Translations under genes and position numbers: made by a program | DNA from: Treponema sp. | GTDB lineage: Bacteria > Spirochaetota > Spirochaetia > Treponematales > Breznakiellaceae | Direction of reading: 5' to 3' | DNA length: 44,651 nt | Assembly: GCA_031282065.1 (NCBI GenBank) | Contig: JAITEL010000059.1 | Coordinates: forward strand, 1 to 44,651 | Part shown: positions 6,577 through 24,600 of the stretch, piece by piece | Numbering within the stretch: position 1 is the stretch's first letter | Layout of the letters: every line of letters begins with the position of its first letter | The notes under the pieces: generated by a model | Database searches by the model: none | What the model was told of the DNA's origin: nothing | What the model saw: the letters and a program-made list of their open reading frames with translations, nothing else

Positions 6577-8969
6577 CTAGAATACCCCGGTAATGGCCAG
6601 GATGGAGAGGGTCGCGGAAACCAGGGAGAGGATCGTGGTAATAACCGGGGCGAATTGATTAAACTTAGCCGTGAAGGTATTGACAGGTACGCTGATCATG
6701 GATTCCGGGGGAATGTGGTCGGAAAGCTTGAGGTTTTTATGATACATATCAAAGACCTTAATGCCCCGGCCGCTGTTCAGCAGCTCGTCCCGGCCTCCTG
6801 CCAGGTTGATATAGTACTCAGCCTGGCGATCCGGCACATAGGGGTACCTCCCCGGGGCTTTCACCGCCCCGCTTACCAGGACAAAGTATTGCTTAAAGGG
6901 AATGATGATGGTGTCTCCGTTTTCCAAGGCCATATCTTTTGAGAAGTCATGCTCATATAAGAAGGGCCGCAGATCCACCGGGATCTGCTCTTCTCCCCTC
7001 AGGATATAGCCGTTGGTCAAGTCCGATACCGCGGTGAACTGCTTGCGGATGGCTCTCACCGCATTGCCCAGGGTTTCCCCGTAATAAAAGGGGTATTCCA
7101 TCTTGGATGTCCCCTCGATCTCTGCGCTGGTTTCTTCTACCTCGGTCGTACGCATCGGGGAAAGGGCCCCTTCAAAAAAGACAACCGGACGGTTTACGCT
7201 TTTATCATCCACGAATATCCTGTCCCTGTCCTCAAGGAGCACCCGGGGGCTTTCACGAAAGGAGGTGAATTGGGTCTCCCCTGAAAGGCCCTCAAGGGTA
7301 TGGATACGGGAGAGGCGGATACGCTCGGTATCCGCGTTGAGGGTAAAGCCGTCCGCGTAATAGGAGATGAGCGCGTCCAAGTGCTCCTCGGGAAGCAGTT
7401 CATAGGTACCGGGCCTGAAGACCTCACCGCTTATGCTGACGATGCGCCCTGCCGCGGGGATATGGATCCGGTCTCCCGGCCGTATGTAGGGGTCTTGGGA
7501 GAGATCCCCAAAGCGGCGGGCCAAGAACAGGTCGTAGTCTCGTGTTTTTCCCGCAGCGGATCGGATCCGTACAAAGCGCGTTGAGGCCTTGTCCGTAAAC
7601 TCGGTGGCTAATGCGGATAAGCGGGTCAGGCTGGACAGGGGTTTATCTCCGGCTTCAATCACTTCCCCGCTTAGGGTGTAATACCGGCGGTAGGGGATGA
7701 CAATAACATCCCCCTCTTGGAGGGTCCTATCCGCAGTATAGTCGTTGCGAAAGAGGAAAGCTTCCAGGTCCACCGGAATCTGGAGGCCCTCCCGGAGTAT
7801 ATAAGCTTGGGCCAAGTCCGAAACATCGCTGAAAGCGGCTGAGGTATTGCGGCTGGCATTGCCGAGGGTTTCCCCTTGATAAAAGTAATAGGGAATCCGG
7901 GATATGCTCTGGGGGCTTTGAGGGTTTTGAGGGCTCTGGAGGCTTTGAGGGCTTTGAGGCTCCTCCTCCTCTTCGCCTGGGGCGGTCCCGGGTAGGACCA
8001 GCGCGCCCTCAAAGAAGACGGCTGTCCGGTGGTTCCTTTTGTGGTCCACCTGCAGCTCGTCCCCATCCTCCAGGGCTATAGCCCTATCCTCTTCCCAGGA
8101 GATGAAACGGATTTCCTGCGGGGCTTGTGCAGTGCTGCCGGAACGGATGAGGCTCATCTTCTGGGGCACTGCGTTGAGGGTGAAGCCGTCCGCGTAATAG
8201 GAGATGAGCGCGTCCAAGTGTTCCTCGGGAAGCAGCTCATAGGTACCGGGCCTGAAGACCTCGCCGCTTATGCGGACGATGCGCCCTGCCGCAGGGATGT
8301 GGATCTGGTCTCCCGGCCGTATGTAGGGGTCTTGGGAAAGATCCCCAAAGCGGCGGGCTAAGAACAGGTCATAGTCCAGGTCTTTTCCCGCAGCAGTGCT
8401 TACCCGTACAAAGCGCAGAGAGGCCTTCTGGGTCAGCTCCGTGGGTAACGAGGATAAGCGGGTAAGTCCATCCACGGCAAGCATACCGGCTCTGGTAGTT
8501 TCCCCGCTGAGGGCCACCTGGAAACGCCCCATGTGGGTGAGGGTAAGGGAGGCCCCGGACAGGGGATAGTTTCGGGAAACCAGGTTGAGCACCTCCGTCC
8601 TTAATTGGAGGTAGCTTTTGCCCCGGCCGTTTAAGGTTCCCAACTGCTGTACCTTTAACTGATACCCTGCATCCAGGCTCAGGGGAACGCTCAGGGCTCC
8701 TCCTAAGGCGGCTACATAATAGGAAAGGGTATAGACATCCCCCGGGGTGGCAGGGTAATCCGCACTCGAGCGGGCCAGGGATAAACGGGCAGCGGTCTCT
8801 TCCGTACTTTGCCGGGCAAGCGAAGCACGGTCAAGCTCTTGGGGAAAGGCAGGAAGAATTCCCCATAAGAGCGCAAACGCGGCAAGTATGCCTATAGGGC
8901 GACGGCTGAGAGAACCGGTGCATGACCGTATAGGGGGGGGGGGGGGGGGGTATTATAAGCAAAGAACAC
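6577..8969 (-). CDS. SLBB-domain polysaccharide export-type protein, out of frame at a poly-C tract
   Basis: The body (8643 down to 6577, ~690 residues) has repeated SLBB/soluble-ligand-binding modules with YIRPGDQIHIPAAGRI, SGEVFRPGTYELLPEEHL and a final VSGAVKAPGRYPYVPD, and ends in a hydrophobic segment (VITTILSLVSATLSILAI). The same frame continues upstream to encode GILAAFALLWGILPAFPQ (8892-8839), an evident signal peptide, but contains no ATG, GTG or TTG before an in-frame TAA at 8955-8953. A GTG at 8969 with AGGGAG nine bases before it is the best start. It lies two bases out of frame across the 18-C tract, and 19 or 16 Cs would join the two. Likely role: periplasmic/outer-membrane step of polysaccharide export. 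Confidence 0.7.
7334..7545. repeat. Intragenic duplication of an SLBB module (partner 8171-8382)
   Basis: The stretch from gcgttgaggg onward at 7334 recurs 837 bp later at 8171 with only scattered single-base changes over ~210 bp (about 95% identical by eye). Both copies code the same DYDLFLARRFGDLSQDPY...YADGFTLNA block. Flanking module parts are more diverged, so this is a recent duplication or gene conversion within the SLBB gene. A Q/S/P-rich spacer with 9-12-bp repeats (ctttgaggg units, about 7909-7966) lies between them. Confidence 0.85.
8933..8950. repeat. Poly-G tract (18 G on +; poly-C in the SLBB gene)
   Basis: An uninterrupted run of 18 G on the plus strand, read as C on the minus strand, between the likely GTG start (8969) and the signal peptide of the SLBB gene. 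Runs of this length slip at high rates during replication. Frame arithmetic shows that 16 or 19 residues link start and signal peptide, while 18 (as here) ends translation within ~25 codons at TAG. The assembled length may itself be uncertain. Confidence 0.9.
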
Positions 8970-9002
8970 GATAGGTATCTCCCTGGTAGCTTTAATGGTT
9001 TT

Positions 9003-9032
9003 ATGATACTCAATCCCGTACGATTAGGTCAA
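9003..9032 (-). promoter_or_regulatory. Promoter of the SLBB gene (sigma70-type)
   Basis: On the minus strand, TTGACC (9032-9027), an 18-bp spacer and TATCAT (9008-9003). The start of transcription would fall near 8996, giving a ~27-nt leader to the AGGGAG site (8984-8979) and the GTG at 8969. A TATAAT-like string also abuts the poly-C tract (8956-8951) and could act as a second -10, but no -35 partner is visible. Confidence 0.5.
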
Positions 9033-9133: not shown

Positions 9134-9416
9134 GTACATCTCTTTGGGGATTCCCTCCTTACCCGGTTTTGTTTTGAGACAAGCGGGAGTCCTGGTAAAG
9201 AGATCAAACGTTTTGGTAAGGAGATAGGTGAGATTTTTCCATGAGGCAAAGAGATTTTCAAAGGAGGTCAAGAGATTTTGCAAAAAGGTCAAGAGATTTT
9301 CCCAGGAGATCAAGCGTTTTTCCCAGGAGGTCAAGAGATTTTATAAGGAGATCAAGTGTTTTTGCAAGGAGATCAAGCGTTTTTATAGCGGCCTGTGGAG
9401 CCTGTTCGTTCCATAG
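9134..9416 (+). repeat. Dispersed repeat with seven or more 21-bp units, copy 1
   Basis: It begins gtacatctctttgggg and ends gagcctgttcgttccatag; between them lie 21-bp units of the type aagagattttcaaaggaggtc (9197-9390). A shorter relative with the same two ends but only two units lies inverted at 32167-32303. Read in frame, the units give seven-residue repeats (KEVKRFC, QEIKRFS, KEIKRFY), and the left end gives LFGDSLLTRFCFETSGSP, matched in the second copy by LFGEPLPDRFCFETTGSP. No ribosome site or full-length ORF is evident. This repeat accounts for most of the 8970-9470 interval upstream of the TerD gene. Confidence 0.75.
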
Positions 9417-11104: not shown

Positions 11105-13195
11105 ATGCGTGAGACCGCATTAAAGCCGGTGATCCGGTTAATCAAAGAAAATTGCGTTAATTGTCATAAATGTATCATGGTGTGTCCCGTGAAAATGTGC
11201 AATAATGGCTCAGGATCTACGGTGGAGTTTAACAGCGATCTCTGTCTGGGCTGCGGTGAATGTATTCACGCCTGCGATCATAAGGCCAGAGTCGGCATAG
11301 ATGATTTTGAGCCGTTTATGCAGGCGCTTAAGGAAGGAACCAATATAGCGGCTATCGTGGCCCCTGCTATTGCCACCATGTTTGGCGGGGAATACCTGAA
11401 ATTTAACGGCTATCTGAAAAAAATCGGGATTAAAGCGGTCTTTGATGTGAGCTTTGGGGCAGAGCTCACGATTAAGTCCTATGTGGCGTACAGGAAAAAG
11501 AAGAACCCCTCCCTTATCATAGCTCAGCCCTGCCCCTGTCTGGTCTCATTCATTGAAATATACCGGCCTGAACTCATCCCCTACTTGGCCCCTGCCGATA
11601 GCCCCATGGTGCATATCATGAAGATGATTAAACGCTACTATCCCCAGTATGCAGGCTATAAAATCGCGGCTATCTCTCCCTGTTATGCCAAACGAAGGGA
11701 ATTCGACGCGGTGGGTATTGGGGATTACAACGTAACCTTTAAGTCCATCCTGAATCATCTTGAACGCACCAAGGACCGCATCAGCCAGTATGAGCCTGTT
11801 CCCTATGAGAACCCGGCGGCAGAACGGGCGGTCCTCTTTTCTACCCCAGGGGGCCTCATGCGTACCCTGGAACGCTATGACAGTAGAGCTTCAAGTCATA
11901 CCAGGAAGATAGAGGGGAATCCTGAAGTCTATCATTACCTTGCCCATTTGGAGAAAGCCATCAAGAGCAAGAGCCTTTCCCCGTACAATCTGGTGGATTG
12001 CCTTAATTGCAAAATGGGGTGCAACGGCGGACCTGCCACATCGAACCGGAAGCGGCAAATTGACGAAGTTGAAGTAAAGGTGGAAAACCGGCATGTTGCT
12101 GCCAGGAACCATTATAGGAAGAAGCATCGCAGCGAACAGGCTGCAAATCGTAAACTGGAAAAACTCCTGGATGATTACTGGCAAGAGGGCTTATATGACC
12201 GTACCTACGTCAATAGGTCGGAGCTGTTCAAACGAAACGTTACCATTCCTTCCGCGAAGGAGCTACAGGCGGTGTATGTTCAAATGTATAAAAAAGAGGA
12301 GCGGGATTTCCTCAACTGTGCTGCCTGCGGGTATGACAACTGTGAACAGATGGCAGTTGCCATTATTAACGGGCTTAACCGGCCTGAAAACTGCCGGCAT
12401 TTCCTTGAAATCGAGAAAGACCTCCTGAATAGACGACACAAAGAAGAAATTGATAAGACTATTAACATGGTCTACGGGCATACCATAGGAGAGATGAATA
12501 AAAGTATCCAGGGTATTGGCTCTTTGACCCAGCTTATCAATGAGACTGCCGCGGCGATCCTTAAATCCTCTGCGGTGGTGGAAGCCATGGTCGAGAATGT
12601 CCGGTCCATCTACAATACCTTGGAGCATAACGCGGAGAACGTCTTGAAGCTCAGTACCTCTTCTTTGGAGGGCAAGAACCGCATCGCGAAAATCGGGGAA
12701 TTGATAAACGACGTGTCTGCTCAGTCGGATGCCTTGATTCAAGCCTGTAAGGTCATTAGCGACATCGCCGATGAGACGAATATCCTGGGTATGAATGCGG
12801 CTATTGAAGCGGCCCATGCAGGGGATACCATAGGTAAGGGTTTTGCCGTAGTTGCCGGAGAGATACGGCACTTGGCAGATAATTCCGGGCATCAGGCAGG
12901 GGAAATAGAGAAAAGCCTCAAGAGCATTAAACAGCTCATTGATATATCCAGCGGGTCCTCTGTTCAAGCCCAGAGCCAGTTTGATACCATCGTATCCTTA
13001 GTCGGCTCGGTAAAAGATGAAGAGCTGCGTATCAGAAACGCCGTGGAAACACAGAATAATGGAGGCCAGCAGATCATTCAATCCTTAAACGAGGTGAACA
13101 CCCTTATATTACAGATCAAAGCCGAGTCTACGGCCCTCCTGGAATCGGGGAAGGCTGTGCTTAATAATATCAGTTCGCTGAAAAACATACCCTGA
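11105..13195 (+). CDS. Soluble sensor: ferredoxin + [FeFe]-hydrogenase-like + Fe-S + MCP domain
   Basis: 696 residues with no membrane segment. Residues 17-57 hold two 4Fe-4S motifs (C17/20/23/27 and C47/50/53/57). Residues ~70-330 match the hydrogenase large-subunit C-terminal domain. Its H-cluster loops are altered: QPCPC (C143, C145) stands where TSCCP is usual, SPCYAKRRE (C193) and CLNCKMGCNGG (C299, C302, C306). Residues 405-430 hold a further CxxC-x4-C...C cluster (NCAACGYDNC). After a helical linker comes an MCP signalling domain with the tip DETNILGMNAAIEAAHAG. By known family behaviour this is a cytoplasmic redox or hydrogen sensor feeding CheA. No methyl-acceptor receptor or CheW gene is adjacent. 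Start: AAGGAGG six bases upstream. Confidence 0.88.
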   Translation: MRETALKPVIRLIKENCVNCHKCIMVCPVKMCNNGSGSTVEFNSDLCLGCGECIHACDHKARVGIDDFEPFMQALKEGTNIAAIVAPAIATMFGGEYLKFNGYLKKIGIKAVFDVSFGAELTIKSYVAYRKKKNPSLIIAQPCPCLVSFIEIYRPELIPYLAPADSPMVHIMKMIKRYYPQYAGYKIAAISPCYAKRREFDAVGIGDYNVTFKSILNHLERTKDRISQYEPVPYENPAAERAVLFSTPGGLMRTLERYDSRASSHTRKIEGNPEVYHYLAHLEKAIKSKSLSPYNLVDCLNCKMGCNGGPATSNRKRQIDEVEVKVENRHVAARNHYRKKHRSEQAANRKLEKLLDDYWQEGLYDRTYVNRSELFKRNVTIPSAKELQAVYVQMYKKEERDFLNCAACGYDNCEQMAVAIINGLNRPENCRHFLEIEKDLLNRRHKEEIDKTINMVYGHTIGEMNKSIQGIGSLTQLINETAAAILKSSAVVEAMVENVRSIYNTLEHNAENVLKLSTSSLEGKNRIAKIGELINDVSAQSDALIQACKVISDIADETNILGMNAAIEAAHAGDTIGKGFAVVAGEIRHLADNSGHQAGEIEKSLKSIKQLIDISSGSSVQAQSQFDTIVSLVGSVKDEELRIRNAVETQNNGGQQIIQSLNEVNTLILQIKAESTALLESGKAVLNNISSLKNIP

Positions 13196-22313: not shown

Positions 22314-22356
22314 TGGAATCCCATGTCCTGAAGGAAAGGCAGAGGGGAAGGTTCCG

Positions 22357-22650
22357 AGAGTTCCGGTGATTACTCCCGAAGTTCCGGTGATTACTCCCGA
22401 AATTCCGGCGATGGCTCACGAAGTTCCGGCGATGACTCACGAAGTTCCGGCGATGACTCCCAAAGCTCCGGTGATGGCTCACGAAGTTCAGATGATGACT
22501 CCTGAAGTTTCGGCGATGGCTCCCGAAGTTTCGGCGATGACTCCCGAAGTTTCGGTGATGGCTTCCAGAGTTCCGGTGATGACTCCCGAAGTTTCGGGGG
22601 TGACTCCGAGAGCTCTGGGGATAGCTCCGGGAGTTCCGGGAAGGTATGCC
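22357..22650. repeat. Minisatellite of about fourteen 21-bp units
   Basis: Units of gaagttccggtgattactccc type run from 22357 to 22650 with increasing divergence to the right. As 21 is a multiple of three, each strand reads as a seven-residue repeat: VPVITPE on plus (open for ~140 codons) and SHRRNFV on minus (open into xseA). Neither has a convincing start site. It lies directly upstream of the xseA promoter. Confidence 0.85.
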
Positions 22651-22754: not shown

Positions 22755-24473
22755 CTACTGTCTGGTAAATACGAAGTCGGAAATTTCAAGGCTTGAACCG
22801 CTGATGCTATAGGGTAGCGGCGAAGAAAGGTTACCCCTCATGGAGGGGGAATACAGGTGCAGCTTGCTGCCGTCGGCTTTCCAAATACGAAGCTGAGTGG
22901 CAGCAGTAGTTTGCTCCATTCTTATAGTCCCGTCCTCATTGAAGATCAAGGTCTGGCTGATACTTCCCTGGCTTCCCTTCCAGGTGGCAAGCAAGCGGGG
23001 ATCCCCTCCTGCACCGGAACCGGGGGGTATGCTTGCAACCTTGGTGTACGTTACCTCTATCTCCTCGTTTCCATTCCGATATGTAACCTTGAGGATATCA
23101 CCGGAAACCGTGTAGGACATCCCGTCTATCTTGCCCTGGGTTACGGCAAGCTTCACCTCTACAGCTGCCCCCAGGGTATGAAAAGTGCCGGTTCCATCGG
23201 CCTTGAGGTCGTAGTAATAGTCCTGACCGTCCCGGGTCAGCTTCCAGATTCCCGCAAGGCCCGGATCGGATACAGCCTTGGTGCAATCCTCGTTTAAGGT
23301 AATGGAAAGGATCACCTGATTGCCGTCTTTTTGGAGCAGATACACCCTATTCCCTTCCGCCGCATAGCCCAGGGTGAGGGTATCCACACCGTAGCTGATG
23401 ACCGCAGTGGCATCGCTCTTTAACTCAAGTGTACTGCCGGAGCTTTCCTTCCCTAGCCAGCCCCCCAGGAGATCAGAGGCCGCCGCCGCCGGGGTCCTGG
23501 TCTCGGTGGTATTTCTGGTATAAGTAACGGTATCAAGGGTAAAGGTGTCCCCGGTGAAGCTAACACCGCTATTACCAATCGTGCTTGGAGTCCAGCTTCC
23601 CTTACTCCACTCATTGCTCCGGATCTCCCAGCATATACCGCCCTCAAGCAGGATGTAGGCCCTATCGCCGGACCGCCACACCCCGGTATAGGGCGCTAAC
23701 TCGGCTGTGGAAGTCCACTTGGCATAGACGGTCATGTTTACGGTAAGGGTCAGTCTCCCGCCGTCCAGCTCAACGGGGCTGGTATATTCCTTGTTCGTAT
23801 ACCAGCCGTCGAATACGAAGCCTTCTTTTGAAGGCGTATAGTAGCTAAGAGATACCTCACTGCCCTTAGCAACAGGAAGCGGCGCAATCGTCGATCCCCC
23901 CTGGGTGTCGAAGCTAAGAGTTACGGCTTCCAGCCATTTTGCCTGTAAGGTGACAGCCGCCGTTACCGTGTTCGTGCTGAAATCCCACTTGGCATTCCCG
24001 TTATACCAGCCGTCAAAAATCCAGCCCGTCTTAGCCGGCTTCTCTGGGGCCAGCGCCTTTTCGCCCTGCACCACGGTCTGCTGTTCCGGAGCCGGAGTAC
24101 CGCCCTCCGCATTAAAGGTTACGGTGAAGGAGGGAATATCCTCTCCTTCAAGCCACTTGGCATAGAGGGTGGTGTCTTTCAGAACCCCATCCGTAGCAAA
24201 ATTCCACGGGGTGATACAGGTACTCTCCGTATACCAGCCGGCAAAGGTGTATCCCTCCTTGGCGGGGTTCGCAGGCTGGGTAAGCGGCTTCCCTTCCTCC
24301 ACGGTTTGCGGTTCCGGAACCGGAGTACCGCCCTCCGCATTAAAGGTTACGGTGTAACTTGGGCCGGGTTCAGGGTCGCTGTCCCCGTTGGTGGGACAGC
24401 CGGTAAAGATACATGCCAGGGCCAGGGCCGCAAGCAAGCCGAAAGAGCGCGTACAGAGACGTCTCGTGTTCAT
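22755..24473 (-). CDS. Lipoprotein with InlB B-type (Flg_new) repeats
   Basis: 572 residues. The signal peptide ends in a lipobox (IFTGC, Cys26), so it is a lipid-anchored envelope protein. Four repeats of the Listeria-Bacteroides type follow: YTVTFNAEGGTPVPEPQTV...GYTFAGWYTE...TTLYAKWLE, repeated near residues 40-110, 115-180 and 185-253. Then come beta-rich lipocalin-like segments with GVWRSGDRAYILLEGG, GGWLGKESSGSTLEL, GIWKLTRDGQDYYYDL and ATWKGSQGSISQTLIF, each ~90 residues apart. Such proteins are usually surface adhesins or binding proteins. AGGAGG lies six bases before the ATG. A poly-C tract ~115 nt upstream may switch it. Confidence 0.87.
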   Translation of the reverse strand: MNTRRLCTRSFGLLAALALACIFTGCPTNGDSDPEPGPSYTVTFNAEGGTPVPEPQTVEEGKPLTQPANPAKEGYTFAGWYTESTCITPWNFATDGVLKDTTLYAKWLEGEDIPSFTVTFNAEGGTPAPEQQTVVQGEKALAPEKPAKTGWIFDGWYNGNAKWDFSTNTVTAAVTLQAKWLEAVTLSFDTQGGSTIAPLPVAKGSEVSLSYYTPSKEGFVFDGWYTNKEYTSPVELDGGRLTLTVNMTVYAKWTSTAELAPYTGVWRSGDRAYILLEGGICWEIRSNEWSKGSWTPSTIGNSGVSFTGDTFTLDTVTYTRNTTETRTPAAAASDLLGGWLGKESSGSTLELKSDATAVISYGVDTLTLGYAAEGNRVYLLQKDGNQVILSITLNEDCTKAVSDPGLAGIWKLTRDGQDYYYDLKADGTGTFHTLGAAVEVKLAVTQGKIDGMSYTVSGDILKVTYRNGNEEIEVTYTKVASIPPGSGAGGDPRLLATWKGSQGSISQTLIFNEDGTIRMEQTTAATQLRIWKADGSKLHLYSPSMRGNLSSPLPYSISGSSLEISDFVFTRQ

Positions 24474-24585: not shown

Positions 24586-24600
24586 GGGGGGGGGGGGGGG
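24586..24600. repeat. Poly-G tract (15 G on +) in the lipoprotein gene leader
   Basis: A run of 15 G on the plus strand (C on the minus strand), ~115 nt before the lipoprotein ATG and ~33 nt after the predicted transcription start. It is preceded on the minus strand by CCTTATATA, much as the other tract (8933-8950) is preceded by GCTTATAATA. It lies in a small upstream ORF beginning at 24632. If the tract were 14 or 17 long, that ORF would run to a TGA overlapping the lipoprotein start (ATGA). Confidence 0.85.

Follow-up and report, generated by a model that had tools for sequence, protein, structure and literature searches.

Repeats in signal-peptide regions are a well-known cause of phase variation, with the CTCTT repeat of the Neisseria opa genes and the poly-G tract of pilC as examples. 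In those systems the repeat lies between the start codon and the mature exported protein, and the number of repeat units sets the reading frame. We describe a similar layout at an SLBB-domain gene of a Treponema sp. of the family Breznakiellaceae, in a window of 44,651 nucleotides (the whole stretch of DNA that was analysed). It differs from opa and pilC in that the repeat is a proline-coding poly-C, tracts of this kind are unusually long (C14-C22), the switching is a prediction and the spirochaete family is not known for pathogens. Treponema pallidum, also a spirochaete, likewise carries G/C homopolymers at the 5' end of surface genes, but in its tpr genes and tp0126 the poly-G lies within promoters and acts on transcription (PMC7864442). 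The window tract is instead a sense-strand poly-C in apparently translated sequence, downstream of promoter and Shine-Dalgarno (SD) sequence; it lies 52 nt downstream of the predicted −10 hexamer, and a promoter poly-G of the T. pallidum type was not found there. The parallel with T. pallidum that the original prediction drew is therefore loose, holding for a homopolymer at the 5' end of the gene and failing for its position and strand. Two further systems resemble a second arrangement that we describe below, in which the tract lies in a short leader open reading frame (ORF). In Helicobacter pylori, the mRNA leader of the chemoreceptor gene tlpB contains a variable G-repeat that is bound by the small RNA RepG (PMC8295292), whereas here the repeat is C, it lies in a leader ORF and the apparent signal is the overlap of the leader frame with the next start. 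Translation of iraD is coupled to a short upstream ORF (PMC5574718), a coupling that is not made phase-variable by a homopolymer. Among open-access papers we found neither homopolymer-controlled translational coupling nor a report of phase-variable repeats in the window's family.

The 5' end of the SLBB gene is built from the following elements.

9003..9032, minus strand: promoter-like site TTGACC-18-TATCAT, 10 of 12 consensus bases
8979..8984, minus strand: Shine-Dalgarno-like AGGGAG, 9 nt 5' of GTG 8969
8967..8969, minus strand: GTG, the proposed start codon (leader VFFAYNT, with M as its first residue)
8953..8955, minus strand: TAA closing the SLBB frame 5' of the tract
8933..8950, minus strand: poly-C tract of 18 C; at 16 or 19, GTG 8969 and the SLBB frame would be joined
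8839..8931, minus strand: signal-peptide segment IRSCTGSLSRRPIGILAAFALLWGILPAFPQ, which lacks its own start codon (frame translation)
8921..8923, minus strand: ATG that is not in the SLBB frame and aligns with the start of the tract-less orthologues and paralogue (L128-L133)
6577..8922, minus strand: frame of the SLBB protein, 781 aa when counted from 8922, uninterrupted as far as its stop (translation and domain search)

The SLBB frame comprises 784 codons, ends at a stop at 6579-6577 and is open upstream as far as the TAA at 8955-8953, with no in-frame ATG, GTG or TTG before TTG 8643. Directly after the tract it encodes a signal peptide, RRPIGILAAFALLWGILPAFPQ. On the other side of the tract, the minus strand reads TTC TTT GCT TAT AAT A after GTG 8969 and continues into eighteen Cs (8950-8933), a length that the draft assembly of 179 contigs may have wrong by 1-2 Cs. 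As assembled, the frame that opens at GTG 8969 stops at TAG 8894-8892 after about 25 residues; 19 Cs would join it to the SLBB frame as a protein of 797 aa, and 16 Cs as one of 796 aa. The region contains two promoter-like sites, compared with 0.5 in shuffled sequences. Every coordinate of the original prediction that was checked proved right, and the sequence bears out its elements: a signal-peptide-bearing frame that lacks a start before the TAA; an out-of-frame GTG with AGGGAG and an upstream promoter, the promoter-like site at 9032-9003, beyond the C run; and a frame that is joined at 16 or 19 Cs and ends early at 18. The prediction had overlooked the out-of-frame ATG at 8923-8921 and a second poly-C tract in the window (C15, 24600-24586).

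We consider it somewhat probable that the C18 run is translated as part of the 5' end of the SLBB gene and acts as a slipped-strand contingency element. Transcription would start from the promoter near 9032-9003 and ribosomes would begin at GTG 8969; the tract would be translated as five to six prolines, its length modulo 3 setting the frame, so that 16 or 19 Cs would be ON, yielding the signal peptide and SLBB protein, and 18 Cs OFF. Slippage during replication may then vary tract length within the population and switch expression of the predicted exporter reversibly between cells. We favor this explanation because of the well-formed promoter, the GTG with its SD sequence, the lack of an SD sequence before ATG 8923, the many parallels in relatives and the intact 784-codon frame, which is as expected of a gene in use. 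Against it stand the tract-less orthologues with their ATG start, an SD sequence that matches at only 4 of 6 positions, the use of GTG, a weaker start than ATG, and the finding that most tracts in the genus lie in leaders.

The most serious competitor, which we regard as unlikely, is that ATG 8923 is the true start, that the tract belongs to the 5' leader and that a one-base indel between 8923 and the signal peptide, real or a consensus error, makes the start seem missing. Five orthologues from the same genus (L128-L132) and a paralogue in the same genome (L133), all lacking the tract, begin with an ATG whose aligned position is 8923-8919 of the window, no more than a codon away from 8923, and the tracts of the genus mostly precede genes with their own SD sequence and start, as this reading would have it. 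Yet the stretch from the tract to 8923 contains no SD sequence, the 784-codon frame should have decayed after a real frameshift, and signal peptides elsewhere in the family likewise have no start after a tract. Of the two start candidates, it is GTG 8969, with its SD sequence and promoter-like site, that fits the local sequence, and the ATG equivalent to 8923 that the orthologues use. If translation began upstream, the ATG would have been free to drift out of frame, with tract length compensating. The phase-variable switch of the original prediction keeps the support of its architecture and of many independent examples in relatives, and the orthologues' ATG leaves a plain one-base frameshift as its less probable alternative. 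By eye, the tract-less genes L128-L132 directly follow the end of an apparent transposase gene, unlike the gene in the window.

Long C runs are far in excess of chance in this genome. In its 2.65 Mb of draft sequence (179 contigs) there are 44 C/G runs of 9 or more, and about 18 internal runs of 15 or more (C15-C22) where about 0.01 is expected by arithmetic from base composition over 2.65 Mb, so the C18 run is not a chance occurrence. Contig-end sequence aside, the runs fall into two classes, one of 9-11, which is background and often lies in coding sequence, and one of 15-22, formed by the approximately 18 tracts; no runs of 12-13 exist (27 runs at thresholds of both at least 12 and at least 14), and only two A/T runs reach 12 or more. 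Other genomes of the genus carry 8-54 runs of 12 or more, compared with 0-7 in other families of the order, and runs of 14 or more occur in 175 of 200 genomes of the family, although raw per-genome counts are inflated by C runs at contig ends. A search of a named genome set for the pattern ATTA-C16-G also matched Treponema and Spirochaetaceae metagenome genomes, one of which (L271) has the same start-tract-signal peptide arrangement as the window. Judging from sample codes and genome sizes, these genomes and the window probably derive from termite guts.

We think it very unlikely that assembly produced the tract or its length, or that the gene is a pseudogene. Many contigs of this assembly do end in C50-C76 runs and C-rich junk, and tract lengths taken from draft metagenome assemblies are unreliable. 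The window tract, however, has unique flanks on both sides and an intact frame downstream, species assembled independently of one another share tracts at orthologous genes, and two single-contig genomes of the family carry 12 and 5 runs of 14 or more, which argues against a product of draft assembly. The C50-C76 runs and C/G-rich sequence at contig ends of the window's own genome (L079, L080, L081, L084, L085 and L086) are probably sequencing or assembly artefacts.

The tracts share a characteristic placement. Their Cs lie on the sense strand of the downstream gene (49 co-oriented neighbors against 8, or 49/57), TA directly precedes most of them and their lengths center on 17-19. Orthologous genes of different, separately assembled species often carry tracts of different length: an SLBB/Poly_export gene has one in five species (C16-C19), and recurrent tracts were also found at genes for an outer-membrane efflux protein, an InlB-repeat lipoprotein and an HD_5-domain protein. 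Other genes behind tracts encode chemoreceptors, a UbiA-family enzyme, a glycosyltransferase, a beta-barrel protein, Ig-like or BspA surface proteins and, in L161, a hydrogenase-like protein. Exported proteins were not significantly enriched among tract genes when scored with a crude classifier (14/46 compared with 29/140). In the window itself, 11105-13195 encodes a protein that joins an iron-only hydrogenase large-subunit domain to a chemotaxis MCP signalling domain. In two other species of the genus (L184 and L349), a tract adjoins a repeat-like domain, shared by the two, in a large surface-type protein and apparently lies within coding sequence, which suggests switching within the protein.

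The order of start codon, poly-C and signal peptide without its own start is found at the window and about 13 other loci from several genera, and mostly at lipoprotein genes: L174 and L196 in the window's genus; L241, L244, L247, L259, L265 and L293 in G046; and L214, L226, L249, L271 and L307 elsewhere. We assign the window tract to this fused form because no SD sequence and start lie between it and the signal peptide. Several of the G046 loci belong to one lipoprotein family, MKEKACSYPSVKKLVNN-poly-Pro-NRSYPSKNLAAAISTLCCVLLFFGCAA, of which L265 is in frame and L244 and L259 are out of frame. Across the fused loci, the assembled sequence is in frame only at L241 and L265.

Most tracts of the window's genus are arranged differently, in leaders upstream of genes with their own SD sequence and start rather than fused to the gene. 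In what we call the coupled form, the tract is part of a short ORF that lies upstream of such a gene and often has an SD sequence and ATG of its own. The idea that every tract sits in an untranslated leader was dropped after tests of leader starts and signal peptides. An SD sequence and start reading into the tract were present at 20 of 72 loci, compared with 2-3 of about 56 controls (∼5%) and 5 of 71 on the opposite strand; the counts were 17/25 against 1/25 controls in G046 and 12/41 against 1-3/32 controls in held-out species. Further, at 11 of 42 loci the leader frame ends, in one of its three phases, exactly over the next start (ATGA or GTGA), where shuffled spacers give an expectation of 3.2. 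This pattern was found in exploration, and the only test set up in advance was a held-out set, which includes orthologues of the first, with 6 overlaps at 28 loci against 1.5 expected (P about 2e-4). Pooled, 17 of 68 loci of the genus have the overlap at exactly +4, with every other offset at 4 or fewer; the expectation rises to 9.2 (P = 0.008) when real genes at matched distances, of which many probably belong to naturally overlapping operons, serve as the control. Outside the window's genus the overlap was not enriched (2/32 compared with 1.1 expected). The SD sequences of coupled genes are also more often paired (0.29 unpaired compared with 0.44; p = 0.018, uncorrected), and the SD sequence is covered by a CCTCC/GGAGG hairpin at L077 as well as at the orthologue L342.

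The window contains an example of the coupled form.

24586..24600, minus strand: the window's other poly-C tract, of 15 C, within a leader ORF from ATG 24632 (MSGNACPYLI)
22755..24473, minus strand: List_Bact/InlB-repeat lipoprotein gene, whose start overlaps the leader-frame stop (ATGA) in one of three phases

The same layout of tract and lipoprotein gene occurs at L325 of another species. Within the window's genus, these overlaps suggest phase-variable translational coupling, a signal that is modest under the strictest control: a leader stop that meets the next start in only one phase of the tract would make the coupling switchable. The SLBB tract would be one of many such elements, at dozens of genes across the family. 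We tentatively propose, at somewhat less than even confidence, that the family carries a genome-wide set of poly-C switches in two translational forms, fused and leader-ORF coupled.

These observations also bear on the possibility, to our minds quite improbable, that the tract works through transcription or mRNA control, in the manner of the T. pallidum promoter poly-G or the H. pylori tlpB leader. The TA immediately before most tracts would accord with such a role, as would the several tracts that precede chemoreceptor genes, as in H. pylori. But SD-bearing starts read into tracts far above controls and leader frames end on the next start codon, and a promoter model scoring −35 and −10 elements around the tracts was not significant after composition shuffles and was rejected, TA alone being conserved.

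For the SLBB protein, the original prediction had proposed capsule or exopolysaccharide export. The protein does contain an SLBB domain (PF10531, E = 7.1e-14), but Poly_export (PF02563), present in the paralogue L134, was not found in it even at E = 5, and its best match to the NCBIfam polysaccharide-export models scores 38 bits against a cut-off of 333. The neighboring genes encode citrate lyase and TerD proteins rather than forming a capsule cluster. Export of capsule or exopolysaccharide is a conjecture drawn from the SLBB domain. The gene may also vary by recombination, since it contains a 300-nt direct repeat (7306-7605 and 8143-8442, 86% identical) and in several relatives it is the site of contig breaks. 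Two tandem repeats lie elsewhere in the window: a 21-bp repeat of 7.4 copies at 9230-9384 (GAGATTTTCCCAGGAGGTCAA), upstream of the SLBB promoter and with AGGAGG in its unit, and a 21/63-bp array at 22353-22639 (CCGAAGTTCCGGTGATGACTC, 12 copies).

If the coupled form is true, a homopolymer could switch a gene from outside its coding sequence, which would be a new mechanism; the genes under such control would be those for chemoreceptors, a glycosyltransferase, a prenyltransferase-like enzyme and surface lipoproteins. The coupled form would also give a simple rule—a leader stop on the next start codon—for finding switches that a search of coding sequences misses. With long C runs numbering up to about 200 in some assemblies, a count inflated by contig-end artefacts, these uncultured spirochaetes, apparently insect gut symbionts, would have one of the larger sets of contingency loci known, and surface variation would not be a device of pathogens only.
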